NCBI GenBank assembly: GCA_017569305.1
Contig: CP069418.1
Span: 930,001 to 994,000 of the forward strand
DNA from: Clostridiales bacterium FE2011
Lineage (GTDB): Bacteria; Bacillota; Clostridia; Christensenellales; Aristaeellaceae
Length of the DNA stretch: 64,000 bases
Direction: 5' to 3'
This document shows, piece after piece, positions 3,915 to 46,309 of this stretch (positions within the stretch are counted from its first letter, which is position 1; the number at the start of each line of letters is the position of its first letter). Below the pieces are notes generated by a model. It was given only the letters and a program-made list of their open reading frames with translations, made no database searches and was not told the origin of the DNA. The position numbers were made by a program, and so were the translations under genes.

Positions 3915-3924
3915 TCCCAGAACA

Positions 3925-3960
3925 TTAAACGAGGCTGCCATCCGGCAGCCTCGTTTTAAT
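3925..3960. terminator. Bidirectional terminator between convergent genes
   Basis: GAGGCTGCC and GGCAGCCTC form a 9-bp stem with a 4-nt loop, flanked by an A-run on the left and CGTTTTAAT on the right. It sits between the synthase gene and mnmG, which converge here. Confidence 0.8.
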
Positions 3961-3968
3961 GTCACTTT

Positions 3969-5834: not shown

Positions 5835-5837
5835 TGA

Positions 5838-28865: not shown

Positions 28866-29339
28866 TTATTTGTACAGATTTTGTTTCCCGTTCAGCACTG
28901 CGGACAGCAGTTTCTCGCCGTTGTATACAAGTTTCAGGGAGAAAAACGGGATCTCTTCATCCAGCAGCCTGTGAAAGATCCGGTCGCCTTCCCACTGGGG
29001 CAGGGCATCCAGGTCCTTCTTCTTCATCCAGACCAGCTCGCCCTCGTCGCAGTCCGTCAGTTCGCCCGTGTATTCATCGGAAGTAAACAGATGCATCCGT
29101 TCCGTTTCATACTGATCGCTGACGAAGGTCACGATCCCCCGGTAGCGCCAGGAGGTCATGGTCAGCCCGGTCTCCTCCCACACCTCGCGGAGAGCGCAGT
29201 CCTCCGGGCTTTCCTTGTCCTCAAAGCGGCCGCCGATGGCAACCCACTTGTCGTGGTTCATATCATTCTTTTTCCGCGTCCGGTGCATCATCAGCACCTC
29301 ATCCCCGCGGTAAAGATAGCACAGCGTGGAATCAATCAC
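28866..29339 (-). CDS. Nudix hydrolase, MutT/8-oxo-dGTP diphosphatase type
   Basis: 157 aa. The full Nudix box GRFEDKESPEDCALREVWEE is at about residues 38-57 and TGL completes it. MIDSTLCYLYRGDEVLMMHR at the N-terminus is typical of the 8-oxo-dGTPase group in Bacillota. The substrate assignment rests on family likeness only. The start is a GTG that overlaps the TGA stop of the XRE-cupin-ligase gene (GTGA), so translation is coupled and the gene is under the same T-box. A role in that ligase's pathway is possible, for example removal of a side product, but this is speculative. Confidence 0.85.
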   Translation of the reverse strand: MIDSTLCYLYRGDEVLMMHRTRKKNDMNHDKWVAIGGRFEDKESPEDCALREVWEETGLTMTSWRYRGIVTFVSDQYETERMHLFTSDEYTGELTDCDEGELVWMKKKDLDALPQWEGDRIFHRLLDEEIPFFSLKLVYNGEKLLSAVLNGKQNLYK

Positions 29340-31674: not shown

Positions 31675-31713
31675 GAAAAAGCCCGTCCCAAAGTTTAGAC
31701 TTTGAGACGAGCT
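31675..31713 (-). terminator. T-box terminator hairpin
   Basis: On the minus strand GCTCGTCTCAAAGT pairs with ACTTTGGGACGGGC over a short loop and is followed by TTTTT. It starts a few bases after the antiterminator core and ends about 42 nt before the start codon. Confidence 0.85.
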
Positions 31714-31946
31714 TGAATAGCCCGCGGTACCACTCAAATTGCGGCTCATCACCGCCACTCTTGAACCCCAACAGGTTCTATGCCCTTACGCGGCAGTCAC
31801 GGGAAGGTTCTACTTGCGCCTTCGCTTTCTTCCTTCCGGCTCTGGAGCTACAGCTCGCGGGCTCTTCCCACGGCTTGCACCAACCGCCGTGTCTCTGAAA
31901 GCCGATACCCGTTGCCCTCTCCTTCAAGGCCTTTATCGGAAGTTTA
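31675..31946 (-). promoter_or_regulatory. T-box riboswitch leader
   Basis: On the minus strand the antiterminator core TGGTACCGCGG is at 31722-31732, directly before the terminator. Stem I is recognisable from GGCTTTCAGAGA, the distal-loop sequence GGTTGGTGCAAGCC and the returning strand AGAGCC. T-boxes sense uncharged tRNA and normally control synthetases and amino acid genes. I could not fix the specifier codon: it probably lies in CTGTAG (31848-31853), which would allow Leu CUG, Val GUA or Cys UGU. The switch controls the XRE-cupin-ligase gene and the coupled Nudix gene. Confidence 0.85.
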
Positions 31947-32206: not shown

Positions 32207-33193
32207 ATGGATAGCAACAAACGGCCCGAAAGCATGGAACGGATTACGACTCCCGCCCTCGCACAGGCATTCATTGCCGAGCAGGTGGAAGCAGTCCGCA
32301 AACAGGTGGGTGACAAAAAGGTTCTGCTGGCTCTTTCCGGCGGTGTGGACAGCTCCGTTGTCGCTGCCCTGCTGATCAAGGCCATCGGCCAGCAGCTGGT
32401 ATGCGTGCATGTCAATCATGGCCTGCTCCGCAAAGGTGAACCCGAACAGGTTATCGAAGTTTTCCGCAACCAGATGAAAGCCAACCTGGTGTACGTGGAT
32501 GCAGTCGACCGCTTCCTGGACAAGCTGGCTGGCGTCAGCGATCCCGAACAGAAGCGCAAGATCATCGGTGCCGAGTTTATCCGTGTCTTTGAGGAAGAAG
32601 CCCGCAAACAGGATGGCATCGCTTTCCTGGCACAGGGTACCATCTATCCTGATATTACAGAGAGCGTCGGCGTCAAGGCTCACCACAATGTCGGCGGCCT
32701 GCCGGACGACCTCCAGTTTGAACTGGTCGAGCCCGTCAAACTGCTCTACAAGGACGAAGTCCGCGTTGTCGGTAAAGAACTGGGACTGCCGGACGGCATG
32801 GTTTACCGTCAGCCCTTCCCCGGCCCCGGCCTGGGCGTGCGCTGCGTCGGCGCCATCACCCGTGACCGCCTGGAAGCGCTCCGTGAAGCCGATGCCATCG
32901 TCCGTGAGGAGATCGGCAAGCTGCCCGAGGTTCCGTGGCAGTACTTCTGCACCATTCCCGATTTCCAGTCCACCGGTATCAAGTATGTGGACGGCAAGGG
33001 CCAGCGCTACATGGGCTGGGCAGTGATCATCCGCGCAGTCAACACCGTGGACGCCGTCACCGCCACCGTGCCGGAGATTCCCTTCAGCGTGCTGTGCACC
33101 ATGCGTGACCGGATCATCTCCACCGTCGACGGTGTCAACCGCGTTCTGTGGGATATCAGCGAAAAGCCCGTCGCCACCATCGAGTTCGAATAA
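32207..33193 (+). CDS. guaA: GMP synthase, ATP-pyrophosphatase part only (no glutaminase domain)
   Basis: 328 aa, compared with about 510-525 for the usual bacterial enzyme. It starts at the ATP-pyrophosphatase domain: P-loop LALSGGVDSSVVAALL near residue 42, then VHVNHGLLRKGE, and the dimerisation domain with RQPFPGPGLGVRC and the C-terminus KPVATIEFE. The N-terminal class I glutamine amidotransferase domain is absent, and the upstream 230 bases encode no remnant of it. This is the split form known mainly from archaea (subunit B). A separate amidotransferase subunit must exist elsewhere, or ammonia is used. GGAGG lies 8 nt before the ATG, so the start is not in doubt. The 3' end is repeated downstream (44489 and 45423). 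Confidence 0.93.
   Translation: MDSNKRPESMERITTPALAQAFIAEQVEAVRKQVGDKKVLLALSGGVDSSVVAALLIKAIGQQLVCVHVNHGLLRKGEPEQVIEVFRNQMKANLVYVDAVDRFLDKLAGVSDPEQKRKIIGAEFIRVFEEEARKQDGIAFLAQGTIYPDITESVGVKAHHNVGGLPDDLQFELVEPVKLLYKDEVRVVGKELGLPDGMVYRQPFPGPGLGVRCVGAITRDRLEALREADAIVREEIGKLPEVPWQYFCTIPDFQSTGIKYVDGKGQRYMGWAVIIRAVNTVDAVTATVPEIPFSVLCTMRDRIISTVDGVNRVLWDISEKPVATIEFE
33167..33193 (+). repeat. guaA 3'-end repeat, copy A (inside the intact gene)
   Basis: The last 27 nt of guaA, coding PVATIEFE plus stop. Copies B and C have two differences each. Copy A would be the functional junction if an element entered here. Confidence 0.75.
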
Positions 33194-33204
33194 GCGCATA
33201 ATCT

Positions 33205-33246
33205 TCCCGGGTATCCTTGTTCTTCAAGGTGCCCGGGTATTTTTTT
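33205..33246 (+). terminator. Terminator of guaA
   Basis: CCCGGG and an inner CCTTG pair with CAAGG and CCCGGG, followed by TATTTTTTT. Confidence 0.85.
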
Positions 33247-33364
33247 GTATTCCGGACAACTTTGCTGCGTCCTTTTTCCCGGGCAAAGTGCTCATTCCGG
33301 AAACAATGAACCGTCCTTCTTTTATCGGCACTCTATACGGAAAGACAACCGCCCTTCTCGAATT

Positions 33365-33391
33365 AAAAAATCCCGGGATGAATTCCCGGGA
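33365..33391 (-). terminator. Terminator of the fructan operon
   Basis: On the minus strand TCCCGGGA pairs with TCCCGGGA over ATTCA, followed by six T residues, about 75 nt after the fructokinase stop codon. Confidence 0.85.
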
Positions 33392-33467
33392 AAGCATATA
33401 TCGTTCATTTCAGTACTTTTTCCTTACTGTGAGAGACATCCATTGTCATCCCGCACCTCAGAAGCGG

Positions 33468-34439
33468 TCACTCTTCCATTTTCCGGGTAACATCCGAATA
33501 CTCCGGAACGCTTGCGATTCCACCGTGCGTCTGCGTTGAAAGGCTTGCAGCGGTACAGGCAAAACTGACAATCCGGCGGAGTTCTGTTTCTGTCAGATCT
33601 GCCGGCGTTTTTTTGCACCTGATAAACTGACTCATTGCGCTGCCGCCGAATATATCGCCGGCGCCGGTTGTGTCGACAACATGAATACCGGACGGACTTT
33701 GCACTGTCACGCGATTCGTGCCATTTGCAGCATAGCAGCCCTTGGGTCCCAGCGTGGCATACACCAGTGAGACGCCGTATTCCCGCAGCAGCTTTTCAGC
33801 GCCTTCTTCCGGGGAAAAGCCCCACAGCCAGTCAATCTCCTCATCACTGATCTTGACAATATCCGCCTGATGCAGGCTCCACTCAATCGCTTCCCTGGCA
33901 TCCTCCTCCCGCTTCCACAGTGGCTTGCGCAGATTGGGATCCAGGCTGATCAGCGCACCGTGGCGCTTTGCCAGTTCAATGGCATGTCGGGTAGCCCCGG
34001 CGGCAGGCTCATCCGTCAGAGAGAGCGTGCCGAAGTGGAAAACTTTCGCGTCCGCGATGAGCTCTTCATCCACTTCTTCCGGGGTCAGACAGGTATCGGC
34101 GCCCGGTTTACGAGCGAAGCTGAAATCCCGGTTCCCGGACGCGTCCAGGGAAACAAAGGCCAGCGTTGTAAAAATGTTCGGGTCAATCCGGATCCCCCGG
34201 GCATCTATCCCGGCATCCTCCAGTGTTTTCACCAGCGCTTTCCCGAAGGCGTCATCGCCGACTTTTCCGATCATGGCAGTCCTGCAGCCGTACTTTGTCA
34301 GCGCTGCCAGGAAATTGCCCGGCGCTCCGCCCGGGTTGGCGGACAGGACCGGGTATCCTGCCTCATTGACGGAATGTGGGGCAAAATCGATCAGCAGTTC
34401 ACCGAGCGCAACCACGTCATAATGTTTCATCCGTGTCAT
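33468..34439 (-). CDS. Fructokinase, PfkB/ribokinase family
   Basis: 323 aa. It phosphorylates a sugar, most likely fructose released by the GH32 enzymes. The N-terminal signature is ALGELLIDFAPHSV, with GGAPGNFLAALTKYG as the sugar-binding loop and DTTGAGDIFGGSAM as the PfkB signature with catalytic Asp. Length is normal. The ATG overlaps the stop codon of the cytosolic GH32 gene (ATGA), so the two are translationally coupled. It is the last gene of the seven-gene operon. Confidence 0.92.
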   Translation of the reverse strand: MTRMKHYDVVALGELLIDFAPHSVNEAGYPVLSANPGGAPGNFLAALTKYGCRTAMIGKVGDDAFGKALVKTLEDAGIDARGIRIDPNIFTTLAFVSLDASGNRDFSFARKPGADTCLTPEEVDEELIADAKVFHFGTLSLTDEPAAGATRHAIELAKRHGALISLDPNLRKPLWKREEDAREAIEWSLHQADIVKISDEEIDWLWGFSPEEGAEKLLREYGVSLVYATLGPKGCYAANGTNRVTVQSPSGIHVVDTTGAGDIFGGSAMSQFIRCKKTPADLTETELRRIVSFACTAASLSTQTHGGIASVPEYSDVTRKMEE

Positions 34440-35929
34440 TCCTTTTCAATCAGCGAGTATTTTGTGACATCCATCATCACTTGGCCATCGGCTTCAAACG
34501 AGATCTTCCGTGCATCGGACCCTGTGAGGATGGTGGCGGTCATCACCTGTTCCCCGTCATTGATAAAAACCTCCATACTGAAGCGGTCCAGAATCACATG
34601 CAGCCGGATTTCACCCCGCTGATCGGATACCAGGCATCGGCGCTGATGGATATATGCTCGCCTGGATCCTGAGAATTTGCGGTCAATCTGCAGCCATGAC
34701 TCATAAGGCCGGTAGCTGAGAACTGAATGGTATTTCTCATTCTGGGCAAACTTCATGATGAACTTCTGGTAGGGGGTATCCGGATCAGCGCATCGCAGAT
34801 GGATATCCAGTTCAACAACCCGCCCTTCGATTCCTTCCAGGCTCTTTTCTCCGTCCAAAAGGACATCCCGATACTCCACTTTCCCGCTTCTGTACTGCGC
34901 CAATTCCCGGACCGGCTGCTGGTAAAGACGGCCATTCCTGAAGAACAGTTCCCGCGGCAGGCTCATCTGGCCAAACCAGGGCCGTTCTTCATAACCGGTT
35001 GTTTTGCAGGTGTCCCAGTTTTGCATCCAGCCGATCATCACACGCCTTCCGTCAGGAGTCAGAATGGTCTGCGGAGCGTAAAAGTCAATCCCGTAATCGA
35101 TCGCCTGGTTATTCTCCTCGACGAACCGGTCTCCGTCCATTCGCCCTGTGAGGCAGACGGTACCGTTACCGTTATGGTATTCAAAGTCTTCCGGAAGCAT
35201 ATCCTGCGGGCTGACAAACAGTACATGTTTTCCGTCCAGTGGGAAGAAATCAGGGCATTCCCACATGAGGCCGAACCGTCCGTCATTCTCTGCCAGTACT
35301 CCGACATACCGCCATTCAAATCCGTCCCGGCTTTCATACTGGAGCAGAACGCCCCGTTTGTCCTCCCGGCGTGCACCCACCACGCAGCGGTATGCCCCGT
35401 TCTCTGTCCGCCAGATCTTCGGATCCCTGAAATCGTAGGGACTCAGGTCTTCCGGAAGTGCATTGCTGCCGAGAACCGGGTTCTTTTCATACTTTTGGTA
35501 ATCTGTTCCGTCGCCGACTGCAATGCACTGGGTCTGAAACTCTCTGGACTTATCCCCGCCCTCCTGCCGCACGCCCGTATACATCAGCAGTTGCCTGCCG
35601 TCCGGCAATTCCGTCGCGCTGCCCGAAAAGCATCCGAAGGAATCATACGGAGCGTCCGGAGCCAATGCGGCAGGCAGATAAGTCCAGTGAAGCAGGTCAT
35701 GGCTGACTGCATGTCCCCAGTGCATGGCATCCCATTCCGTATCATACGGATTGTACTGGTAGAACAGGTGATACTGGCCGTGGTAATAGCAGAAACCGTT
35801 GGGATCGTTCATCCATCCGGTCAAAGGCGTCAGGTGGAAAACCGGACGGCTTTCCCGCGGGATTTTTCCGCCTTCAGCCTGCTCATACGCCCTGGCAAAC
35901 AGCAGGCTGTGGTTTACCGTTTTCTTCAT
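34436..35929 (-). CDS. Cytosolic GH32 beta-fructosidase (sucrose/fructo-oligosaccharide hydrolase)
   Basis: 497 aa without a signal peptide. All GH32 landmarks are present: the nucleophile block GWMNDPNG with Asp42, the transition-state block FRDP at residues 167-170, and the acid/base block WECPD with Glu224. The C-terminal beta-sandwich module follows from about 340. It would split sucrose, sucrose-6-phosphate or imported fructo-oligosaccharides in the cytosol. As the transporter is an ABC type and not a PTS, an unphosphorylated substrate is more likely. It starts 4 nt after the stop codon of the lipoprotein gene, with GAGGT as ribosome site. Confidence 0.94.
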   Translation of the reverse strand: MKKTVNHSLLFARAYEQAEGGKIPRESRPVFHLTPLTGWMNDPNGFCYYHGQYHLFYQYNPYDTEWDAMHWGHAVSHDLLHWTYLPAALAPDAPYDSFGCFSGSATELPDGRQLLMYTGVRQEGGDKSREFQTQCIAVGDGTDYQKYEKNPVLGSNALPEDLSPYDFRDPKIWRTENGAYRCVVGARREDKRGVLLQYESRDGFEWRYVGVLAENDGRFGLMWECPDFFPLDGKHVLFVSPQDMLPEDFEYHNGNGTVCLTGRMDGDRFVEENNQAIDYGIDFYAPQTILTPDGRRVMIGWMQNWDTCKTTGYEERPWFGQMSLPRELFFRNGRLYQQPVRELAQYRSGKVEYRDVLLDGEKSLEGIEGRVVELDIHLRCADPDTPYQKFIMKFAQNEKYHSVLSYRPYESWLQIDRKFSGSRRAYIHQRRCLVSDQRGEIRLHVILDRFSMEVFINDGEQVMTATILTGSDARKISFEADGQVMMDVTKYSLIEKE

Positions 35930-35933
35930 CGTT

Positions 35934-37514
35934 TTACCTCGTATACTCTCTCAGGTCAGTCCATGTAACCGTATTGCTCTCCGTGAACAGGCGGATAGGC
36001 TTCCCGCTGACGCCGTACAGCCGCACGGTCAGGGATGCCTCGTCTCCCAGCCAGAAGATTCCGGCGGAACCTTCCTGGATATAGGTAAAGCTGTATTCCT
36101 TTCCGGCTTCCAGCGCCGCGGCTGTTTCAGTAATCAGGGTACCGCCCTCATTGAATGTCAGCTGCAGCTTCTGTTCTTTCGGATTCAGGCAGATAATCTT
36201 TGTTTTTTCATCCTGTCCGTTATAGTCAAAAGCCAGCCCGAAGCTTCCTTTCCCCGTATACGTCACTTTTCCCTTCAGCATGAAACTCTCATAGGCGGTA
36301 AAAGCATCCGTATAACTGTAACGGGATCCTGCGCGGATTTCAATCTGATCCTGTTCAATCAGCAGCTCCCGCCGTTTGTCAAACTGGGCCTCAACCGCTT
36401 TTACCGGAATCAGCGCCAGCTCGCCGTTTTCTTTCTGCGCCAGCTGCTGTACTGCCAGATTGCCGGCCCAGCCGGAAACCTCCGAGGTGGAGGAGGGGGA
36501 TTCGCTCCGGCGCGCCCAGCCGACCATATAGGAACCGTCCTGGTTTTCCACATGCTTTGCAGCATAGAAAAGCTTGCCGTCCAGCCGTTTTGCTTCCCCG
36601 TAGGGGCCATACGGAGTATCTGACATTGCGTACCAGAGGGTATCGTCCTGGGCGGAATACGTCAGGTAATACCTGTCCCCGATCCGGAAAGTGTCGCTGC
36701 ATTCCAGGTTCCAGAAGTTTTCCTTCGCTGTATTTGTAAAAATGATCCCGTCGTAATCAGCCTTCTGCAGGTCTCCGCTCAGGGTATATTTGAGGATCCT
36801 GGCCTTACCGTCCTGTGCAGCGGTCACAGTCATATGGATCACGTCGTTTTCCGCGTCGTAATACGCCTGCGGATCCCGGAAATCCCGTTTCTGTCCCAGT
36901 TCGGCCGGCGGTGTGATTTCCCAGCCTTCCACCTTCTCAAACTGATCCGGAGCAGTTCCCTTCGCTACCATGATTTTTTCCATATACTCATAGATATCGT
37001 AAGAAGCATGGCCGGTGTAGAAGAAATAATAGGTATCCTTTACTTTTACAACAGAACCCGTGCCTGCCCATCCGTCCTGTCCGCCGCTGCGGCTGCTCTC
37101 CAGGATGGGATTGTCGTATTCGGTATAGGTTACGAAGTCCTTTGTTGTCGCCAGGTAAATAGAGTGGTTGTAGGAATCGCCGCCCTCTTTCAGGTAATAG
37201 ATATACCAGGTGCCGTCCTCATAATAAGGCATCGTGTCGCCCACATAGGGCTGGTTGATGCCGTCAATGGCCGGCCTGAAAAAGGTTCTGTACTCATAGG
37301 CTTCCTCCTGGCTTCCCGGTGTCCGCAGTGCGGAAAAATCCTTGTCATTCTCAACAGCGGCAAACGGTTCCCCGCTTTCCGGAGCTATCGGGGCAGCTGC
37401 TGCAGGAGCCTCTGTCACAGTGTTCTGTGTGTTCCCGTTGTTCTGGCATCCGGCCAGCAGCATCGCGCAGGCCAGGAGAAGGGCCAGGAGAAGGGCCAGT
37501 CTTTTCTTGTTCAT
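35934..37514 (-). CDS. Surface lipoprotein, GH32/GH43-like five-bladed propeller enzyme
   Basis: 526 aa. Signal peptide with lipobox LLAGC (Cys23), then an Ala/Pro/Thr/Glu linker and a beta-propeller plus sandwich of GH32 size. FRDPQAYYD fits the transition-state block and NLECSDTF the acid/base block, but the usual WMNDPNG is replaced by GINQPYVGDTMPYYEDGTWY, where Asp of VGDT would be the nucleophile. It is therefore a divergent member, probably acting on levan, inulin or a related fructan at the cell surface. Start set at the second of two adjacent ATGs (37514), 6 nt after AGGAGG; the first is only 3 nt away. Confidence 0.78.
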   Translation of the reverse strand: MNKKRLALLLALLLACAMLLAGCQNNGNTQNTVTEAPAAAAPIAPESGEPFAAVENDKDFSALRTPGSQEEAYEYRTFFRPAIDGINQPYVGDTMPYYEDGTWYIYYLKEGGDSYNHSIYLATTKDFVTYTEYDNPILESSRSGGQDGWAGTGSVVKVKDTYYFFYTGHASYDIYEYMEKIMVAKGTAPDQFEKVEGWEITPPAELGQKRDFRDPQAYYDAENDVIHMTVTAAQDGKARILKYTLSGDLQKADYDGIIFTNTAKENFWNLECSDTFRIGDRYYLTYSAQDDTLWYAMSDTPYGPYGEAKRLDGKLFYAAKHVENQDGSYMVGWARRSESPSSTSEVSGWAGNLAVQQLAQKENGELALIPVKAVEAQFDKRRELLIEQDQIEIRAGSRYSYTDAFTAYESFMLKGKVTYTGKGSFGLAFDYNGQDEKTKIICLNPKEQKLQLTFNEGGTLITETAAALEAGKEYSFTYIQEGSAGIFWLGDEASLTVRLYGVSGKPIRLFTESNTVTWTDLREYTR

Positions 37515-37581
37515 CATTAACCTCCTGACAGAAGGACAGGGAGGATGAACTGATCCATCCTCCCTGCGGTTCGTCTGCTGT

Positions 37582-39411
37582 TTACTGGACGGTCATCTGG
37601 TAAATTGTCATATTCTGGAACTCTATCGTGACCTCACCCATCTTGGACAGGGCTTCCGAGCCGAACTGGAACAGCAGTTCGAAATCCATGTCCACCACAA
37701 ACGTATCCTTTGTGGAGAAACGGAAGGTCTGGAATTCCGTCGTCAGGTCCATGCCTTCAGAGAAGCGGGGATCCCAGCCTCCCATCGGGTTCAGGAACAC
37801 GCCGCAGGATACCGGCTGCGTCGCTCTCGCGGTGATTTCCACGGTATAGTAGCTGTCGGAAGCCAGCGTCAGGGGATTGCCGCCGATACCGCAGATCAGC
37901 TTGTTGTGCCAGTCGACGGTGCCACCGTTGTCAATCCGGTAGAAGAAGCTGCCGTCCTGCGCCCAGATGGTGCCGACGCCGCGCTCGTTGTCTTCATCCG
38001 TTCCGTTGAAGGTTGCCCACGGGCAGTCTGGATTTGTCGCATTGGCCGTATTCGATCCGAATGGCATGAACGCGTCAATCGTCTTGTGGGTTTCCTTGTC
38101 TCCTTCCACATTGCCGAAGACGACGTCGCTGATCACAATGCTGTTGGACGTCACGCCTTCCGGAGGATTGCCAATCTGCAGGCGGATCACGGGATCATCC
38201 ACATCCGCTTCCGCGGTGAAGACGCTGGAGACGACAGTTTCTTCCCCGGCACCGGCACTGATGCCGTTGAAGTTTGCCCGGTTTTCCCATCCTTTTTCCG
38301 CGCTTTCCACCAGTGCTTCACCGCCCTGGCCGTTGGCCGCCGTCATCTTGAAGCTGTAGAAGTACTTCTTGCCCTTCTCGACCTTCGTGTCGCCCAGCAG
38401 GATGTCTGCCTTGACGCTCCATACGCCGCCGTCCGCGTTGGGATAGGTGTCGATGGTCACCGTCGCTTTGCCGTCCGCGAAGCCGACGCTTCCCGTTGCT
38501 TCTTCACTGGTTGTAACTGCCACGCCTTCGCCGGCAGCGAATTCGGATGTGTAGACCGGAACCTGGGTCTCTTCACCGGAAATCTCATACAGTTCGATCT
38601 TATCAATCGTCACTTTGAAATCTTCCGGTGTGGTATCTTCCGCGTTGTCCGGATTCGGGGTAATCTTGCCCAGGTTGAACAGCAGTTCTGCGCTGCCTTC
38701 GCCGGGAGAAGTGAAGTTCAGCTCCAGCGGAGCGATCTCCGGACCGATCTCCACATTGAACGCGCCGCCGAAGGTTTCCCAGCCCTCCGCCTGTTCGTTC
38801 CGGGCAAGGATATGCGCATAGGTCTTCTTGGTGGATTTCGCCCAGATCTTAATCCTGTAGTCCGCCGCTTTCAGCGGATATCCCGCCTTGGCCAGCTGCA
38901 CGGCGCCGTCTCCGTCACCCGGATTCTTGATTTCAATAACGTAAGCGCCTTCTTTCAGCTCTGCTGTGGCTTCGGCAACCTCGGTATTGATCTTTGCTTC
39001 CCAGCCGCGGTTGTCCGTCACAGCGGCAGTGCTGAAATCAAAGGTTTTGTAAACCGTCTCTTCGCTGGTTTTCTTGGTAACCGTCAGGGTCGCGTAATCC
39101 TCAGCTGTCTCGCCGTTCGCGTCTGTTACGGTATAAGTCAGTTCATAGTCACCCGGATTTTCAGGGGTTGCTTTTCCGTTTCTGAAATCCAGAGCCGGCA
39201 TGGCGTCTATCTCGATCAGATCCGTCAGATCGCCGCCCGCGCCGTCGGTTGCGGTAACGCCTGCCAGGGCATCAAACTCAGTTCCGGCCATCACGCTCTG
39301 GTCATGCACCCCGTCCAGCGTCGGCGCGCCGTCCGCGAAAGCAGGTCCGGCCGCGGCCAGCATGCATACAGCCAGCAGCAGGGAAAGAATGATATGCAGC
39401 CTGTTCCTCAT
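37582..39411 (-). CDS. Secreted multi-domain carbohydrate-binding protein
   Basis: 609 aa. Signal peptide MRNRLHIILSLLLAVCMLAA, cut after AFA. Residues about 30-115 form an Ig/cadherin-like domain (LDGVHDQSVMAGTEFD, GDYELTYTVTDANGETA). Then follow about three jelly-roll modules of 140-170 residues resembling CBM4/9-type or levan-binding modules, with YRIKIWAKSTKK, YFYSFKMTAANG and YYTVEITARATQ at equal places. No catalytic motif is seen. It probably binds fructan outside the cell. No lipobox, sortase or S-layer motif was found, so its attachment is unclear. GGAGG lies 9 nt before the ATG. Confidence 0.72.
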   Translation of the reverse strand: MRNRLHIILSLLLAVCMLAAAGPAFADGAPTLDGVHDQSVMAGTEFDALAGVTATDGAGGDLTDLIEIDAMPALDFRNGKATPENPGDYELTYTVTDANGETAEDYATLTVTKKTSEETVYKTFDFSTAAVTDNRGWEAKINTEVAEATAELKEGAYVIEIKNPGDGDGAVQLAKAGYPLKAADYRIKIWAKSTKKTYAHILARNEQAEGWETFGGAFNVEIGPEIAPLELNFTSPGEGSAELLFNLGKITPNPDNAEDTTPEDFKVTIDKIELYEISGEETQVPVYTSEFAAGEGVAVTTSEEATGSVGFADGKATVTIDTYPNADGGVWSVKADILLGDTKVEKGKKYFYSFKMTAANGQGGEALVESAEKGWENRANFNGISAGAGEETVVSSVFTAEADVDDPVIRLQIGNPPEGVTSNSIVISDVVFGNVEGDKETHKTIDAFMPFGSNTANATNPDCPWATFNGTDEDNERGVGTIWAQDGSFFYRIDNGGTVDWHNKLICGIGGNPLTLASDSYYTVEITARATQPVSCGVFLNPMGGWDPRFSEGMDLTTEFQTFRFSTKDTFVVDMDFELLFQFGSEALSKMGEVTIEFQNMTIYQMTVQ

Positions 39412-39428
39412 TATAATATCCTCCTTCA

Positions 39429-41192
39429 TTATTTCGCGGCAAAGCGGTCATAGGCGTCCTGGTATACTTTCTGGATGCCGGCCAGGTTGACCTTACCGTT
39501 CAGGTCGTTCTGGAATGCTGTCCAGGCATCGTCGCTCACGCCGCCCTTCATCAGCCAGCTGATCAGGTTGGTCCGGATATAGTCATTCAGGTTCGTCTCA
39601 TAGTTGCTCAGCGTGTTCAGTTCTTCCAGGGTAAACTGGAGGTTCGGGAACGGAATCACATTTTCCGGTACGAAGGGCTTGGCGCACTGCTGCAGGCGTT
39701 CCAGGCGCAGCTGGGCGCGGGGTTCCATATGAACCACATTGTTCCAGGCGTATTCGCCCAGATAAATGATACCCAGCGGTGCATTCTGCAGCCGCAGCTC
39801 GTCCGTGGTCACGCCTTCCGGCAGCGGCTTCTGCATCAGCATGCCCTTCTCATCCCGCTCTTCCTCATAGACGATGCCGATGGGGCCGTAGTTGATCTGG
39901 GCGGAAATCACGGGATCGTAATACCGGTCAAAATAAGCAAGCAGGATCTCAGGATACTTGCAGTCGGAGAACAGGATCACTTCGCCGGTGCTGACCTCCG
40001 GATTGTTGGAAACGCAGATGGTCTGATCCCCGTTCGGTCCGATCAGCGGACTGCACACAATATAGTTTTCGGGATTGGAAACCACCGTTTCGCTTTCCCA
40101 CCAGTAGAAGGCGCCGTAGGTCTCCAGGCCCTTGCCGTTGGCCAGGAAGTTGTCCTGGCTCTGTTCAAAGCTGACCTTGTCGATCAGGCCCGCGTCCACC
40201 CACTTGGCAATGAAGTTCGTCGCTTCCTTGAAGCGGTCGTCCTGAATCGTGTAAGTGGCTTTGCCGTCCACAATCACCCGGTGCTCCAGGTTGTCGTTCA
40301 GGCCGAACATGCCGTACAGATCGCACTGGTTGCCCTGCCAGTTGTTGTAAACGAAGCTCAGGGGCCGCTCATCGTCAGTCTTGCCGTTTCCGTTCATGTC
40401 ATGATCCCGGAAATAGGTCAGGATTTCTTCCATCTGGCTGCTCTTCAGCGCCAGGCCGTCCTTCAGCTGGTCTGCCGTCAGGTCGCTGACTGCGCCGGCT
40501 TCGATGGCTTCCTTCGTCCAGGCAATATTCAGGAACAGCAGGTTCGGGCTCTGCAGCAGGCCCATTTCTTCAATGCGGGGGAGAGAATAAATCTTTCCGT
40601 TTTCCACGTTCAGCAGCTGGTTCTTGATGTCAGGCCGTTCTTCCAGCAATTTGGAGAAATTCGGCATATACTCCAGGTAATCGCTGATCGGCACCAGCAC
40701 CTTGCGCTTGGCGTATTTGATGATTTCTCCGGCGCCCATACCAGCGTGGTAAATCGCATCCGGACGGTTGTCCTTGTTGCCGAAGATCAGGTTTTTCTGC
40801 TGGGAATATACAGACTCGGATACATTTTCCCAGTTGACCTGCACGTTCGTCTGGGCGAACAGGTCAGTCATGATCTTCATGTCGTTGTAATCCTTCGCGC
40901 TGGCATTTTTGGAGGAATACACCTTGAAGGAAATCTCCTTTGCGCCCTGCTCATTCAGGATCGGGGCGGAAGGATCCTTCCACTGGAATCCGTAGGTATC
41001 GGTCAGTGCGTTGCCGGTCGCGGGTGCCGCAGCGGTATCATCCTTCTTCTCTTCAGCCGGCGCTGCTGCGGTTTCTTCCTTCTTTTCTGCCGGTGCTGCG
41101 GCGTCCTTCTTGTCTCCGCCGCTGCAGGCAGTCAGTGTAACCGCCAGAACGATCATCATCAGGACAAGCAGCCATTTTTTCAGGTTTTTCAT
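39429..41192 (-). CDS. ABC transporter solute-binding lipoprotein (fructan locus)
   Basis: 587 aa. Lipobox LTACS sets the anchor cysteine near residue 23, followed by a low-complexity Ala-Lys-Glu linker of about 35 residues. The rest has the large two-lobed fold of the LplA/family-1 binding proteins that serve oligosaccharide importers. DHDMNGNGKTDDE is an EF-hand-like calcium loop often found in this group. It would capture fructo-oligosaccharides for the two permeases encoded just upstream (gap 17 nt). Start at 41192 follows AGGAGG at 8 nt; the longer frame to 41276 overlaps the permease gene and is rejected. Confidence 0.9.
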   Translation of the reverse strand: MKNLKKWLLVLMMIVLAVTLTACSGGDKKDAAAPAEKKEETAAAPAEEKKDDTAAAPATGNALTDTYGFQWKDPSAPILNEQGAKEISFKVYSSKNASAKDYNDMKIMTDLFAQTNVQVNWENVSESVYSQQKNLIFGNKDNRPDAIYHAGMGAGEIIKYAKRKVLVPISDYLEYMPNFSKLLEERPDIKNQLLNVENGKIYSLPRIEEMGLLQSPNLLFLNIAWTKEAIEAGAVSDLTADQLKDGLALKSSQMEEILTYFRDHDMNGNGKTDDERPLSFVYNNWQGNQCDLYGMFGLNDNLEHRVIVDGKATYTIQDDRFKEATNFIAKWVDAGLIDKVSFEQSQDNFLANGKGLETYGAFYWWESETVVSNPENYIVCSPLIGPNGDQTICVSNNPEVSTGEVILFSDCKYPEILLAYFDRYYDPVISAQINYGPIGIVYEEERDEKGMLMQKPLPEGVTTDELRLQNAPLGIIYLGEYAWNNVVHMEPRAQLRLERLQQCAKPFVPENVIPFPNLQFTLEELNTLSNYETNLNDYIRTNLISWLMKGGVSDDAWTAFQNDLNGKVNLAGIQKVYQDAYDRFAAK

Positions 41193-41209
41193 GTTGTTTT
41201 CCTCCTTCT

Positions 41210-42127
41210 TTATCCCTTCAGGGAGCCAATCATGACACCTTGTGCAAAGTATTTCTGGACAAACGGATACAGGCACAGCACCGGCAGGCTGGAGACGATC
41301 ACGGATACATACTTCAGCTGGTTTGCCAGGCGGTACTGCTGCAGAATCGTTTCGCCGCTTCCGCCCACGGTGCTCTCACTTGCAATCAGGATTTCCTTCA
41401 GCACCAGCTGCAGCGGATACTTGTTTTCATCCTGCAGGAAAATCATGGCGTTGAAGTAGCTGTTCCACTGTCCGACCGCATAATATAGCGCCATAACGGC
41501 AATGATTGCCTTGGACAGCGGCAGCACAATGGAGAAGAAGGTCCGGAATTTTCCGGCGCCGTCAATCCGTGCTGCTTCCAGCATGCCCTCCGGAATGGAC
41601 GATTCAAAGAACGTCTTGCTCATGAACAGGTTCCAGACGCTCAGGATTGCCGGAAGGATCACCGACCAGGCGGAGTTGATCAGCTTCAGGCTGCTCATCA
41701 CGTTATAGAACGGGATCAGGCCGCCGCCGAAGAACATCGGGATAATGAAGTAAATCATCCAGAACTTTTTCCCGGGGGTGGTTCTGCGGCTCAGTCCCCA
41801 GCCGGCGGGAATCGTCACCACCAGCGAAAGAACTACCGTCACCACGGTATAGATAATGGTGTTGAGGTATCCCCTCCAGATATCACCCCGCTGGAATACT
41901 TTCTCATAGCCTTCAAAGGTGATATTCACGGGAGCCAGCACCACCTGTCCGCCCAGCACCGCGTCCGGGTCGGAGATGGAGGCAATCACGATAAAGTAAA
42001 GGGGATACAGAATGATCAGTGCAAGCAGGCCGAGGATACAGGCGTTGATCACAAAGAATATCTTGTCGCCCTTTGTATCCTTCAGTGCGTTGTTCCTGAT
42101 ATTGATTGCGGGTGCTTTCTGAGTCAT
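41210..42127 (-). CDS. Carbohydrate ABC transporter permease, LplC/MalG type
   Basis: 305 aa with six membrane spans. The EAA loop that docks the ATPase is EAARIDGAGKFRTFFSIVLP. The C-terminus FVQKYFAQGVMIGSLKG is the usual ending of the CUT1 MalG-type subunit. GGAGG lies 10 nt before the ATG; 14 nt separate it from the partner permease. Confidence 0.92.
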   Translation of the reverse strand: MTQKAPAINIRNNALKDTKGDKIFFVINACILGLLALIILYPLYFIVIASISDPDAVLGGQVVLAPVNITFEGYEKVFQRGDIWRGYLNTIIYTVVTVVLSLVVTIPAGWGLSRRTTPGKKFWMIYFIIPMFFGGGLIPFYNVMSSLKLINSAWSVILPAILSVWNLFMSKTFFESSIPEGMLEAARIDGAGKFRTFFSIVLPLSKAIIAVMALYYAVGQWNSYFNAMIFLQDENKYPLQLVLKEILIASESTVGGSGETILQQYRLANQLKYVSVIVSSLPVLCLYPFVQKYFAQGVMIGSLKG

Positions 42128-42141
42128 CTTCGTTCCCCTCC

Positions 42142-43107
42142 TTACCACAGCGAGTTCTCGGAGAACCGTTTGGATGTCGTGTTGGCAATGATCAGCAGCA
42201 CAACGTTGATCACGGAGTTGAACAGACCGATGGCCGTTGCGTAAGCCTGATCCGGAACGCCTGTCAGACCGCGTTTGTACACGTATGTGGCGATCAGTTC
42301 ACTGACAGCCAGGTTTCCGTCGGTCTGCATCAGCAGGGCCTTTTCATAACCCACGCCCATCAGGCCGCCGATGGACATGATCAGCATCACGCTGATCATC
42401 GGCATGATTGCGGGAATGTCCACATGGAGCACCCGCTGGAACCGGCTTGCGCCGTCGATCATGGCCGCTTCATGCTGTACAGGATCCACGTTGCTCAGGG
42501 CGGCGATGTAGATAACCGCGCTCCAGCCGAAGTCCTGCCAGTTGCTGGACAGGATATACAGCGGGCGGAAGGCGGAGCTTTCCAGGAAATAGGATACCCG
42601 CTCCGCGCCCAGGCTTGCGGCAATGTTGTTCACCAGGCCGTAACGCCCGAAGAACAGCTGCAGCATACCGACCAGAACAACCAGCGAGATAAAATGGGGA
42701 GCGGTATAGATAGTCTGGAAAACCTTCCCCGTCTTCTTCCGTTTCAGCGCGTTGAGTGCGAGGGATACGATGATCGGAAGCGGGAAACCGATGACAAATC
42801 CGACAATACACAGGATGAATGTGTTCTTCATCAGCGGCCAGAACTGTACATCGTTGAAGAATCTCGCAAAGTTTTCAAAGCCGACCCAGATCGTGGTGTC
42901 AGAGAGAATTTTATCTCCCGGCATAAAATCCTGGAACGCAATCAGGACGCCATAGATCGGAAGATAGTTAAACAGGAATACCACCAGAACGGCCGGCAGA
43001 ATCATCGTGAGATACGGAAAGTTCTCCCTGAAATTCCGCAGCCGGTATCCGGGGGTCACGTTTTTCTGCCGCTTTGAAGCGGCAGGCAGTTGCTTCACGC
43101 CTTGCAT
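42142..43107 (-). CDS. Carbohydrate ABC transporter permease, LplB/MalF type
   Basis: 321 aa with six membrane spans (first FPYLTMILPAVLVVFLF). The EAA loop is HEAAMIDGASRFQRVLHVDIP, and the C-terminus has the family ending NTTSKRFSENSLW. It is the first gene of the seven-gene fructan operon. No ATPase gene is linked, so a shared MsmX-type ATPase elsewhere is expected. GGAGGGG lies 6 nt before the ATG. Confidence 0.92.
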   Translation of the reverse strand: MQGVKQLPAASKRQKNVTPGYRLRNFRENFPYLTMILPAVLVVFLFNYLPIYGVLIAFQDFMPGDKILSDTTIWVGFENFARFFNDVQFWPLMKNTFILCIVGFVIGFPLPIIVSLALNALKRKKTGKVFQTIYTAPHFISLVVLVGMLQLFFGRYGLVNNIAASLGAERVSYFLESSAFRPLYILSSNWQDFGWSAVIYIAALSNVDPVQHEAAMIDGASRFQRVLHVDIPAIMPMISVMLIMSIGGLMGVGYEKALLMQTDGNLAVSELIATYVYKRGLTGVPDQAYATAIGLFNSVINVVLLIIANTTSKRFSENSLW

Positions 43108-43190
43108 TTTTCCCCTCCTCGCCAGTTTGCAATGTCGCGTCGTTTATGCAGTTGTAACATCCGTTATCCGGCTTCCCGGATTTCAATTGT

Positions 43191-43219
43191 ATTTTACACA
43201 TTGATTTACATATTGTCAA
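43191..43219 (-). promoter_or_regulatory. Promoter of the fructan operon with overlapping operator
   Basis: TTGACA (43214-43219), 17-nt spacer, TAAAAT (43191-43196) on the minus strand. An operator-like sequence ATTTACATATTGTCAAT (43204-43220) overlaps the -35 element and matches 12 of 16 arm positions of the perfect operator at 43309, which fits repression. Confidence 0.65.
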
Positions 43220-43308
43220 TTGTTTTTGTGCAGTTTGTATATTTTTATTTTATTATGTTCGTTTTATTGCCATTTTTAACAATCTATTTCGATGTCAGGA
43301 CGTGATAT

Positions 43309-43325
43309 GTTTACATTATGTAAAC
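43309..43325. promoter_or_regulatory. LacI-type operator, perfect palindrome
   Basis: GTTTACATTATGTAAAC has two perfect 8-nt arms around a central T. It lies just before the -35 of the LacI gene promoter. Confidence 0.7.
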
Positions 43326-43362
43326 TTGTTTTGATCGTTCCGTTGTGTTACAATATGTAAAC
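43326..43362 (+). promoter_or_regulatory. Promoter of the fructan LacI regulator with second operator
   Basis: TTGTTT (43326-43331), 17-nt spacer, TACAAT (43349-43354). TGTTACAATATGTAAAC (43346-43362) overlaps the -10 and keeps one full operator arm. Its centre is 37 nt from that of the perfect palindrome. This suggests autoregulation. Confidence 0.58.
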
Positions 43363-43405
43363 AAAACAGGCATAATGTCACAAAAAAACAGAAAGGTCGG
43401 AAACG

Positions 43406-44437
43406 ATGCCTTCCAAAAGAATCACTATGCAGGACATCGCGGATGCCTGCGGTCTTTCCCGAAATACAGTTTCCAAAGTTTACAATGGCCGCGGTTCTGT
43501 TCCCCAGAACACCCGGAATCTTGTTTTACAAAAAGCAAAGGAACTGGGATACGGGTCCCCCGCGGAAAAAGTCTTCGCTTCTCCCCCGTCTGTCGGGAAT
43601 ATCGCCCTGCTGACCTGCCACCTCCCCAGCCAGCTCCATTTTGGCACCCTGTTCCTTTCTTCTTTTACAGATATGATCAGCCGGGAAGGCTATGCGCTGA
43701 AAATTTATGAAATTTCACAGGAGGAGCTGGAAAAAAGGCAACTTCCCCCTCATTTTGTTCCGGAGCAGATTGCCGGGATCGTCGGAATCGAGCTTTTTGA
43801 TCCCGATTATGTAAGCACGCTCTGTCATCTTGGCATTCCGATGGTTCTGACGGACAGTTCGGCTGAAACAATCACCTCGCTGATTGAGTGCGACTATGTG
43901 ACTATGGAAAACATTGCCGGAATTATGGCAGTCATCCGGCGTCTTGTGAGGGCAGGTGCCCGGCAGATCGGATTCGTCGGGGATTATAACCACTGCGGCT
44001 CTTTCCGGGAACGGTGGTACGGCTATCAGCAGGGGCTGATGGTAAACGGACTTCAGTACGATAAGCGATTCTGTATCTGTGAACCCGACTCCTCACCCTA
44101 TGATGATTCCGCCTGGCTGCTGTCGAGGATCAATCAGATGCCGTCTCTGCCCGATGCTTTTGTCTGTGCCAACGATTACCTGGCGATTTCACTGATACAG
44201 GCTCTGAAAAAAAAGGACCTGTCAATCCCGGAGGATATCATGATTACCGGTTTTGACGGAACAATGCAGTCTGCCTTCACCGATCCCCCGTTGACCACGG
44301 TCAAGATCTGTGGTACGGAAATCGGACGCCTGGCGGCTGAATCGCTGCTCAACCGGATCCGTATTCCTTCCTTCCCATACAGTTGGACCCATGTGAAATC
44401 AACCCCGATCTGGCGGGAAAGCATCCGTAAAACCTGA
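43406..44437 (+). CDS. LacI-family regulator of the fructan operon
   Basis: 343 aa. Residues 5-26 are the helix-turn-helix (ITMQDIADACGLSRNTVSKV) with the hinge region after it. Residues 60-343 are the periplasmic-binding-protein-like sensor (VGNIALLTCHLP, RQIGFVGDY, PDAFVCANDYLAISLIQAL, IMITGFDGT). It is divergent from the fructan operon, and three operator-like sites lie between them, so it most likely represses that operon and itself until a fructan-derived sugar binds. The ribosome site AAAGGT lies 8 nt before the ATG. It ends 51 nt before guaA repeat copy B. Confidence 0.9.
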   Translation: MPSKRITMQDIADACGLSRNTVSKVYNGRGSVPQNTRNLVLQKAKELGYGSPAEKVFASPPSVGNIALLTCHLPSQLHFGTLFLSSFTDMISREGYALKIYEISQEELEKRQLPPHFVPEQIAGIVGIELFDPDYVSTLCHLGIPMVLTDSSAETITSLIECDYVTMENIAGIMAVIRRLVRAGARQIGFVGDYNHCGSFRERWYGYQQGLMVNGLQYDKRFCICEPDSSPYDDSAWLLSRINQMPSLPDAFVCANDYLAISLIQALKKKDLSIPEDIMITGFDGTMQSAFTDPPLTTVKICGTEIGRLAAESLLNRIRIPSFPYSWTHVKSTPIWRESIRKT

Positions 44438-44488
44438 CGCTTTGCGTATCGTTTTCTTCAGCGGGAAGTTCCGGGCATCCCGGAGAAA

Positions 44489-44515
44489 CCCGTGGCGACC
44501 ATCGAGTTCGAATAA
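44489..44515 (+). repeat. guaA 3'-end repeat, copy B
   Basis: 27 nt with two differences from copy A, both synonymous: the frame still reads PVATIEFE plus stop, and the bases just before encode EK as in guaA. It is not part of any gene. The pattern fits a displaced 3' end from a different guaA allele. Confidence 0.8.
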
Positions 44516-44518
44516 TAT

Positions 44519-44565
44519 CAATATCCCGGGGACCTTATTTACAAAGGTCCCCGGGATATTTTTTA
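44519..44565 (+). terminator. Terminator after guaA repeat copy B
   Basis: ATATCCCGGGGACCTT pairs with AAGGTCCCCGGGATAT, followed by TTTTTT. It would end the LacI transcript and resembles the guaA terminator. Confidence 0.85.
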
Positions 44566-44607
44566 TCTTGCGGCAGGTCAGTAAGACAAATGGCATTGAA
44601 ATACAGC

Positions 44608-44640
44608 GTAAGCCGGGCATGATGCCCGGCTTACGTTTTT
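44608..44640. terminator. Second hairpin near the end of the phosphoribosyltransferase gene
   Basis: GTAAGCCGGGCAT and ATGCCCGGCTTAC form a perfect 13-bp stem with almost no loop, followed by GTTTTT on the plus strand. On the minus strand there is no T-run, so its use for the minus-strand gene is doubtful. Confidence 0.5.
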
Positions 44641-44655
44641 CCAAAAAGTGCGTCC

Positions 44656-45297
44656 TCAGAAGGAAGAAACGCCGTGGCTGTTGACCAGTCCCGTCAGCTT
44701 TTCCCCTGCCTTGCACATCGGGCAGTTGTGGGAGGAGCAGCTGACATAATCGGGGAGGTTCTCCTTTACGGTGAAAACACTCTTGACCGGGAAGCCTTCA
44801 CATTCATCAATCGCGGAGAAGATGGCTGCAACACCTGCGGGAACACCGCTGTAATACCTGATAGCCTCGATGGCGGAGCGGGCGGTAAAGCCGGTGGCCA
44901 GGGAGGCTGCCAGCACCAGCACATGCTTGCCCACAATCATCGGGGCAATATTGTCCCGGAAGATCAGCTGGCTTCCGGAGGTATGTTCCGGAGTCACAAC
45001 GTAAATCGTCTGGTGTGCATTCATGCTCCGGAACCCGGCCTCGGACAGTGCTGAAGCCATGCAGGCGCCCAGCACCTCCGTTCCGTCCAGGCAGAGGATG
45101 GAGTCCACGATCGTGGAATTCTTGTACATGCCGCACAATTCTTCTGCGGCAATCCGGGCTTCTGACAGCCGGTGCTTGGTCATAGTCAGGTCAATGTAGT
45201 AATTGATATGGCTGTGGCTTGTGGCGAAATGCCCATGGGCGACGCGCAGACGTACCTTGTTCTGGTGATTCGGAATCTCAACAATCTGGATAGACAT
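44656..45297 (-). CDS. Phosphoribosyltransferase (orotate phosphoribosyltransferase-like family)
   Basis: 213 aa. It belongs to a family in gut Clostridia usually labelled orotate phosphoribosyltransferase: MSIQIVEIPNHQNKVRLRV, GHFATSHSHINYYIDLT, IVDSILCLDGTEVLGA, NAHQTIYVVTPE, FRDNIAPMIVGKHVLVLAAS and the Cys pair in NCPMCKAG. The PRPP loop is not a textbook match, so the true base or substrate is uncertain. GGAGGAGG stands about 7 nt before the ATG. It is the only gene between guaA repeat copies B and C. Confidence 0.75.
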   Translation of the reverse strand: MSIQIVEIPNHQNKVRLRVAHGHFATSHSHINYYIDLTMTKHRLSEARIAAEELCGMYKNSTIVDSILCLDGTEVLGACMASALSEAGFRSMNAHQTIYVVTPEHTSGSQLIFRDNIAPMIVGKHVLVLAASLATGFTARSAIEAIRYYSGVPAGVAAIFSAIDECEGFPVKSVFTVKENLPDYVSCSSHNCPMCKAGEKLTGLVNSHGVSSF

Positions 45298-45350
45298 GAT
45301 TCGTTCCTCCTCCTGTATGAAATTCTGTAAAACGGTATTTCTGTGAATCT

Positions 45351-45379
45351 ACTATAAACCATTTCCCTCTTGAGAGCAA
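45351..45379 (-). promoter_or_regulatory. Promoter of the phosphoribosyltransferase gene
   Basis: TTGCTC (45374-45379), 17-nt spacer, TATAGT (45351-45356) on the minus strand. Confidence 0.55.
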
Positions 45380-45422
45380 GTGGGCCGGCGGACATACGGT
45401 AAAACAGTTTGGATAAAAACCG

Positions 45423-45449
45423 CCCGTCGCAACCATCGGGTTCGAATAA
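45423..45449 (+). repeat. guaA 3'-end repeat, copy C
   Basis: 27 nt with two differences from copy A. The frame reads PVATIGFE plus stop, so one change is a missense, which fits an older decayed copy. It is not in any gene. Confidence 0.75.
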
Positions 45450-45472: not shown

Positions 45473-45502
45473 GCCCGGCTGCAAAAAACAGCCGGGTTTT
45501 TA
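45473..45502 (+). terminator. Terminator after guaA repeat copy C
   Basis: CCCGGCTG pairs with CAGCCGGG over a 7-nt A-rich loop, followed by TTTTTATT. Confidence 0.8.
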
Positions 45503-45598: not shown

Positions 45599-46309
45599 AT
45601 GGTTTTTGACTGGGTAACTTTTGGAGAACCGCTTTCTTTCTGGCAGATGGTTCTCAGAATCGTGGCCGCGGTCATCTTCGGAGCCATTATCGGTGTCGAA
45701 CGGGAAATGAAAAACAGGCCGGCAGGCATGCGGACGCATGTGCTGGTCTGCCTGGGTGCCGCGCTGATCGGTCTGGTGGAACAGCAGACCATTGCCCATG
45801 TGGTAGCGCTTGGTGCATCTCAAATCAATGTCAGCGTAGGGCGTCTGACAGCACAGATTGTATCAGGCGTCGGTTTCCTGGGTGCCGGAACAATCATCAT
45901 TGCCGACCGTCGGATCTCCGGCCTCACCACCGCGGCCTCCCTGTGGTGCGCCGCCTGCCTGGGCCTGGCTGTCGGTGCCGGATTCACCACCATGGCGCTG
46001 GTAGCCTGTCTGGTGGTCATGGCCGTGCTGAAGATGATGCAGCAGATCGTACATGTGAATACCTACAAGCGGCTTGAAATCCAGTTTATTCATCGGAATG
46101 AAACGCTGAAATACATCCGGGACACGTTTGACCAGATGGAAGTCAAAATCCTTGATCAGGATTTTCACGCGGAAAATACACAGGATGGACAGAATATTTA
46201 TACAAACGTATATACGCTGTCCATGCCCGGCAAAACGGAATACCAGGATTTGATTACGATCCTGTCCGAGCATCCGAACATCAGAACCGTCAGAACCCGG
46301 AACGTATAA
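45599..46309 (+). CDS. MgtC/SapB family membrane protein
   Basis: 236 aa. Four to five membrane spans in residues 18-140 with the family motifs IIGVEREMKNRPAGMRTHVL, QIVSGVGFLGAGTII and GLTTAASLWCAACLGLA. The C-terminal 90 residues form a soluble ACT-like domain (LEIQFIHRNETLKYIRDTF). The family is linked to growth in low magnesium and to regulation of F-type ATPase in pathogens; in gut Clostridia the role is undefined. GGAGG lies 6 nt before the ATG. It ends in a bidirectional terminator. Confidence 0.93.
   Translation: MVFDWVTFGEPLSFWQMVLRIVAAVIFGAIIGVEREMKNRPAGMRTHVLVCLGAALIGLVEQQTIAHVVALGASQINVSVGRLTAQIVSGVGFLGAGTIIIADRRISGLTTAASLWCAACLGLAVGAGFTTMALVACLVVMAVLKMMQQIVHVNTYKRLEIQFIHRNETLKYIRDTFDQMEVKILDQDFHAENTQDGQNIYTNVYTLSMPGKTEYQDLITILSEHPNIRTVRTRNV

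Follow-up and report, generated by a model that had tools for sequence, protein, structure and literature searches.

How did the last codons of one gene come to stand three times on the same strand? In a 64,000-nucleotide stretch of Clostridiales bacterium FE2011 (contig CP069418.1; hereafter the window, whose own positions are used throughout), the final 27 nucleotides (nt) of a partial guaA paralogue recur twice downstream, at the far border of an 11.3-kilobase (kb) fructan segment and again some 0.93 kb beyond. Comparison with related genomes suggests an answer. The 3′ end of this paralogue is very probably an insertion hotspot, at which a native order of guaA, the terminator of the second copy (copy B) and a gene at 44656 has been split by the fructan segment. 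Copy B would be the remainder of the native guaA end and the third copy (copy C) an older one, the live gene having another 3′ end and terminator; we regard this explanation as a whole as highly likely.

Results

Three copies of one gene end

The gene ends and the hairpins behind them are as follows.

32207..33193, + strand: guaA paralogue of 328 amino acids, ATP-pyrophosphatase and C-terminal part (GMP_synt_C and guaA_Cterm domain matches)
33167-33193, + strand: copy A, the last 27 nt of the live guaA, within the paralogue
33206..33237, + strand: terminator hairpin behind copy A (fold -23.7 kcal/mol, z -5.6)
44477..44515, + strand: copy B, putative displaced native guaA end of 39 nt (27-mer part at 44489-44515)
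44520..44560, + strand: terminator behind copy B (fold -31.2 kcal/mol, z -8.0; also found by a simple scan; its counterpart in genome G009 directly follows guaA)
45422..45449, + strand: copy C, probably an older, shortened guaA end of 28 nt (27-mer part at 45423-45449)
45474..45496, + strand: terminator hairpin behind copy C (fold -25.9 kcal/mol, z -4.7)

By Pfam and NCBIfam domain matches the paralogue has no glutaminase part, and its reading frame is intact despite the insertion at its 3′ end. The window's own genome (G000, a single contig of 3,562,493 bases) keeps both this partial guaA (32207-33193) and a full-length guaA elsewhere, at C1:1157109-1158050; because a full guaA exists, the partial one is possibly spare.

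An earlier note, made from the sequence alone, had placed the two further 27-mers at 44489-44515 and 45423-45449, and both are there. Searched as a degenerate pattern with up to 3 mismatches, the 27-mer gave three matches in the window and none in any of 100 shuffled sequences. A 21-nt part of it, with up to 2 mismatches, yielded just the three copy sites in the whole genome, and the reversed control yielded 0; the repeat was thus not found at unrelated terminators. Folding of the sequence behind each copy gave a hairpin and then a T-run at A, B and C, in agreement with the terminators proposed earlier; a simpler scan for terminators reported one on the plus strand at B only. A terminator behind each copy would also suit a dispersed or terminator-linked repeat, or a tandem duplication of guaA. 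With three sites in the genome, all of them here, none in shuffles, and relatives whose cargo differs between the same flanks, such an origin is extremely improbable, and a dispersed repeat or chance was rejected.

Copies A and B are exactly alike in their last 15 nt, and over 27 nt they differ by synonymous changes only. Translation of B (P-V-A-T-I-E-F-E-stop) bore out the claim that frame and stop are kept. Short direct repeats of the gene end are therefore present at both borders of the segment. The core reads GAGTTCGA in the window and GAGTGGGA in many relatives. When tail length was taken as the best-scoring guaA stretch at a right end, B kept 39 nt (34 matches) and C 28 nt (26 matches). 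Copy C has a single missense change, E to G, as reported before; it looks old additionally because about 230 base pairs (bp) between two CCCGTCG repeats are missing from the window relative to G008 and G009.

An empty site and its other occupants

The genus is Aristaeella, since a contig of G002, a genome placed in the same genus as that of the window, is identical over 5,453 bases to a plasmid of Aristaeella lactis WTE2008. G002 (A. lactis) is a cultured strain, and many of the named relatives are ruminant-gut assemblies. The guaA paralogue or a relative of it was found in 57 of 61 genomes, and the stretches downstream were then compared.

The gene at 44656-45297 occurs at ≥96% identity in 8 of the 45 genomes of the genus, that of the window included (one is cut by a contig end), and shares a contig with guaA in seven. 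What separates the two genes varies. In G009 nothing does, which makes it an empty site. G000, G035, G001 and G002 have the fructan segment there. G008 carries another sugar cluster, 14.6 kb long with GH42, GH3 and transporter genes, and in G005 the remnant of an integrase element, with a repressor gene, takes up about 2.5 kb. A further insertion of >20 kb was seen in G002, between the 44656 gene and a decayed copy C. G016 has two guaA tails (about 155 and 223 nt) downstream, with sugar-use genes, named by eye from translations, between them. The predicted proteins of G016 included no relative of the two query integrases described below.

The empty site bears directly on copy B. After the guaA stop G009 reads TATCAACATCCCGGG, which corresponds to the sequence after copy B, and from 44483 on 947 nt of the window match G009 at 93%. 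Because guaA in G009 runs into the counterpart of the B terminator, copy B and its terminator appear to represent the native guaA end, which supports the previous suggestion that B is the displaced end of another guaA allele. That suggestion had come with an expected empty site in which guaA is followed directly by the MgtC-type gene. The empty site was found, with guaA joined instead to the 44656-45297 gene, and guaA stood beside the MgtC-type gene in no guaA locus examined. The 0.93-kb piece between B and C had been taken for a separate remnant; this could not be upheld, because the piece is already behind guaA in the empty-site genome. The description of the guaA 3′ end as a hotspot fits the differing insertions behind the same gene: relatives do not share one gene order, and they differ exactly here.

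Assemblies also break at the guaA 3′ end, as expected for a variable site. A contig end lies within 10 kb downstream of guaA in 55 of 80 named loci, 12 of these within 120 nt past the stop; upstream, the corresponding number is 30 of 80, none within 120 nt of the start.

Integrase elements downstream of the same gene

Integrases were surveyed in 32 guaA loci (that of the window plus 31 more, several of which have only a short stretch past guaA) and in the 80 named loci, two sets that partly overlap. Element counts are lower bounds, since several contigs end soon after guaA, and absence of an integrase from a contig refers to the predicted proteins of the compared stretches, searched with two kinds of integrase query. 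The window has no PF00589 integrase, as already noted from its sequence (the two PF00589 matches of the genome are at 666680 and 3551155), and no resolvase-family match, all three of the genome lying outside. No relaxase or mobilization protein was found among the ten segment and flank proteins scanned.

In relatives, a tyrosine recombinase next to guaA had been proposed as worth seeking, and it was readily detected. Relatives of the G006 integrase occur in 6 of the 32 loci (G006, G007, G018, G022, where the match is weak, G028 and G032) and in 7 of the 80 (L091, L093, L099, L121, L126, L132, with 39 residues before a contig end, and L143). The usual order is a helix-turn-helix (HTH) repressor on the opposite strand, an excisionase, the integrase and a mobilization protein. 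In G006 these are HTH_3, an ICEBs1 excisionase (below cut-off), an integrase with Arm-DNA-bind_4 and SAM_3, and NikA. The G018 element encodes a relaxase, and NikA/MobC-type and relaxase genes are found in the elements of relatives. The G018 segment behind guaA also holds a second, XerC-like tyrosine recombinase (L063 10595-11635, minus strand). Such elements behind the same gene raise a first alternative, that the fructan segment arrived as an ordinary integrase element whose integrase and arm sites were deleted later.

The right end of G006 and two right ends in G032, which has tandem segments, are each made up of an arm plus a 15-nt core, and a 19-nt arm motif (up to 2 mismatches) lies near both ends in G006 and G032. 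Downstream of guaA in the 80 loci (407,526 bases), a degenerate core pattern occurred twice on the guaA strand and 0 times on the other; upstream (690,581 bases) it occurred 0 times on either strand. These counts miss variants such as those in L105 and L138, whose scores stay below the highest null values and which were left uncounted. Integrase relatives of 47% identity also lie directly behind full guaA, in convergent orientation, in G010 and G004 (L175 10944-12002 and L176 10800-11858). A serine recombinase was rejected as the agent: 42 of the 61 genomes have a resolvase match, and among the matches listed none is within 20 kb of split guaA. On viral contigs, two loci encode a relative of the integrase, and a scan found the guaA core in neither.

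Two plasmid records were observed to carry related genes. In L188 (OY725880.1 61337-72404), a Subdoligranulum variabile plasmid record, a 72%-identical integrase is accompanied by a repressor, an excisionase and a mobilization protein; a guaA-like core lies beside the integrase, and the stretch has two predicted tet(W) genes. The A. lactis plasmid G002:C2 has the integrase region twice, at 2097-7549 and 40811-44127, the second being partial, of 95% identity, and reaching the end of the record.

Short and long right ends

Integrase-type right ends keep 12-15 nt of guaA; they were found twice in G032 and in G017, G021:C48, G033:C17, G005 and G018. The G006 right end scores 30 (25 matches) by weak extension, its core by eye being 15. 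Long tails were found at B of the window (39 nt), in G001 (38), G013 (33), G030 (29), L109 (24), G006:C22 (22) and G016 (155 and 223), and the copy C tail measures 33-35 nt in G009 and G008 and 28 in the window. A fixed border of the tails was rejected, as their lengths are not constant.

The fructan cluster itself is found with either sort of end. In the window, G035 and G002 its tail is long; in G021:C48 and G033:C17 it has a 15-nt integrase-type end, followed by a terminator of the same kind. The place of the latter two clusters is only deduced, because neither contig holds guaA; in G033, part of the 44656 gene following the core aids this placement. These two clusters, and G005, where a repressor remnant is left and a 12-nt right end occupies the exact place of copy B, argue for integrase entry. 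Deletion of the arms, however, would leave a core of 12-15 nt, not 39 nt of guaA. Simple integrase action was accordingly rejected for copy B, 24 extra nt of guaA being left unexplained, and B is best read as a displaced native gene end because it keeps 39 nt of guaA against the 12-15 nt of integrase repeats. On both sides of this evidence, arrival as an ordinary element that later lost its integrase and arms seems rather unlikely to us.

Two guaA tails run straight into the inside of other genes: that of G001 into a decayed mgtC copy, and that of G006:C22 into a gene of which G002 has a longer version. Such junctions speak for joints that are not site-specific, without proving it. The decayed second mgtC start in G001, to which the tail is joined, lies at L040 12400-12597 in guaA orientation and is 94% identical over 66 codons.

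Exchange of cargo and gene end

The segment from A to B holds eight genes for fructan- or sucrose-type sugars; they and their flanks are listed here.

33194..33464, no strand: left spacer (98.9-99.3% identity in G035, G001 and G002; no match in the other compared stretches)
33468..34439, - strand: PfkB-family sugar kinase, fructokinase-like (PF00294; best NCBIfam match fructokinase, below its cut-off)
34436..35929, - strand: GH32 enzyme, sucrose-6-phosphate hydrolase subfamily (Pfam and NCBIfam matches)
35934..37517, - strand: GH32-like protein with a lipoprotein-like start, by eye (PF00251)
37582..39429, - strand: surface protein with immunoglobulin-like and carbohydrate-binding domains (PF16403, PF02018)
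39429..41198, - strand: probable sugar-binding lipoprotein, from position and start (no Pfam match)
41210..42130, - strand: ATP-binding cassette (ABC) sugar permease (NCBIfam matches below cut-offs)
42142..43107, - strand: ABC permease (PF00528)
43406..44437, + strand: LacI-family regulator (PF00356, PF13377)
44656..45297, - strand: gene of 213 amino acids, weakly orotate-phosphoribosyltransferase-like (27.6 bits, cut-off 115), the sole gene between B and C
45599..46309, + strand: MgtC-family membrane protein gene, behind copy C (PF02308)

Between the window and G002, identity is 92.9% over the first 799 nt of guaA, 99.3% over the left spacer and 100% over the 78 nt that finish with B. Within the cargo, the PfkB gene is 94.5% identical and the other genes 85-91%, most of the cargo agreeing with the window at only about 87%, and from GH32 to LacI the G002 cargo is 95.8-98.8% identical to that of G021:C48. 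Near-identical segment ends around divergent cargo indicate that the ends were recently shared and that most of the cargo was replaced in one lineage. A fructan-cluster protein occurs in 16 of the 45 genomes of the genus, that of the window included; in G006 it is 92% identical and the guaA protein 76%. Shared DNA starts at window position 33465 in L160, L162, L163 and L164 and ends at 44468 in L161, L162 and L169, several of these contigs being short draft-assembly pieces for which wrong binning is possible.

The guaA gene is affected as well. Between G000 and G035 it has 24 differing sites, of which 19 fall in the last 188 nt and 5 in the 799 nt before them (Fisher p about 2e-10, for a split set after inspection). 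Between G000 and G008 it has 60 differences up to nt 831, 0 at 832-951 and 7 beyond. The 3′ part of guaA is thus mosaic between G000, G035 and G008, which is homologous exchange in the anchor gene. On the evidence of these identities and differing sites, we conclude that recombination has exchanged cargo within the segment as well as the 3′ part of guaA.

Outside the segment, a T-box leader match (RF00230) was observed at 31700-31936 on the minus strand (87.5 bits, E 1.3e-19), narrowly missing the gathering score of 93; it precedes an acyl-CoA-synthetase-like gene ending at 29336.

Discussion

Several observations weigh against the reading of B and C as displaced native ends around an inserted segment. 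The empty site was seen in one genome, G009 (the same genome as L078, RGIG2590, from goat jejunum). The segment does not stand out in its base composition: measured in 2-kb steps, its G+C is 0.50-0.57, against 0.50-0.59 in the surroundings, so the composition check suggested earlier gave no signal and a foreign base composition was rejected. The 19-nt arm motif is absent from the window, and this proves little, as it is also absent from the searched stretches of G018 and G007, which do bear integrases. Most tails, moreover, fall in the range 22-39 nt, so that a second integrase using a longer core could have produced them; such an enzyme would also fit the G008 guaA end, in which the swap relative to G000 begins only at nt 952.

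A second, unseen integrase, crossing over about 40 nt before the stop codon, might have made the long tails. The clustering of B, the G001 tail, copy C in G009 and G008, G013 and G030 between 29 and 39 nt favours it, as do the repeats of 12-54 bp given for streptococcal integrative and conjugative elements (ICEs) (PMC4701971). Tails of 22, 24, 155 and 223 nt oppose it, and no such integrase was found beside a long tail in the predicted proteins searched, with the two integrase queries only. We consider this possibility unlikely, and more so than loss from an ordinary element.

Returning to copy B as a displaced native end, the segment would have entered by recombination anchored in guaA, with a right-hand, non-homologous joint inside the guaA end of the recipient. 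Entry of this kind would explain both the 39-nt tail and the missing integrase; we infer it at about even odds, the alternative being integrase entry followed by loss. More tentatively, and with somewhat less than an even chance of being right, there may be two routes by which sugar-use segments pass from species to species in this rumen genus and reach one gene end. One would be elements with an integrase and a 15-nt core. The other would be integrase-free recombination anchored in guaA, each event leaving a guaA tail plus terminator, with the cargo between these scars then swapped by homologous exchange. The array would be a record of acquisitions, and the partial guaA paralogue their landing place.

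Integration hotspots at guaA are already known (Tn5801, GIsul2), and guaA reportedly figured as an island hotspot in a 2012 survey; the present case is ordinary in kind and unusually legible. Tn5801-like elements have a tyrosine integrase, insert at the guaA 3′ end and carry 11-bp direct repeats at both ends (PMC4844618). The window segment shares the insertion in the guaA 3′ end and the short direct repeats with them, but it lacks an integrase and transfer genes, its cargo serves sugar use, and it lies behind a partial guaA paralogue. GIsul2 inserts at the guaA 3′ end at GAGTGGGA, and its three attachment (att) sites, on all of which its own integrase was shown to act, bound nested units (PMC9376610). 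These three sites resemble the three gene-end copies of the window, and the core of relatives contains the GIsul2 sequence, whereas the window has GAGTTCGA as its core and decayed outer copies. The repeats of ICE_SmiB6_guaA of Streptococcus mitis likewise hold only the exact guaA 3′ end, but that is a complete conjugative element (PMC4701971). The window segment, in sum, works like a guaA island and is an incomplete member, having no integrase, no mobilization gene and a different core.

For displacement, the closest likeness is found in immunity arrays of the type VI secretion system (T6SS), for which homology-facilitated illegitimate recombination has been proposed and in which one insertion after another, anchored in a common gene, moves the older 3′ ends further downstream (PMC5361080). 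T6SS arrays displace immunity genes and effector ends, while the window has gene ends with terminators at a site that integrases use; the mechanism is inferred in both. Recombination of this kind has been described in competent bacteria and in E. coli conjugation (PMC3240628).

Our literature search found nothing joining guaA integration, ICEs and the rumen. What is less usual here is that short and long gene ends surround the same cargo at one site, and that exchange of cargo between species is visible. A well-known integration site is now placed in Aristaeella, a little-studied rumen group, and linked to the way clusters for the use of fructan and other sugars spread from species to species. 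Short (12-15 nt) as against long guaA ends may, by sequence alone, tell integrase insertions from others.

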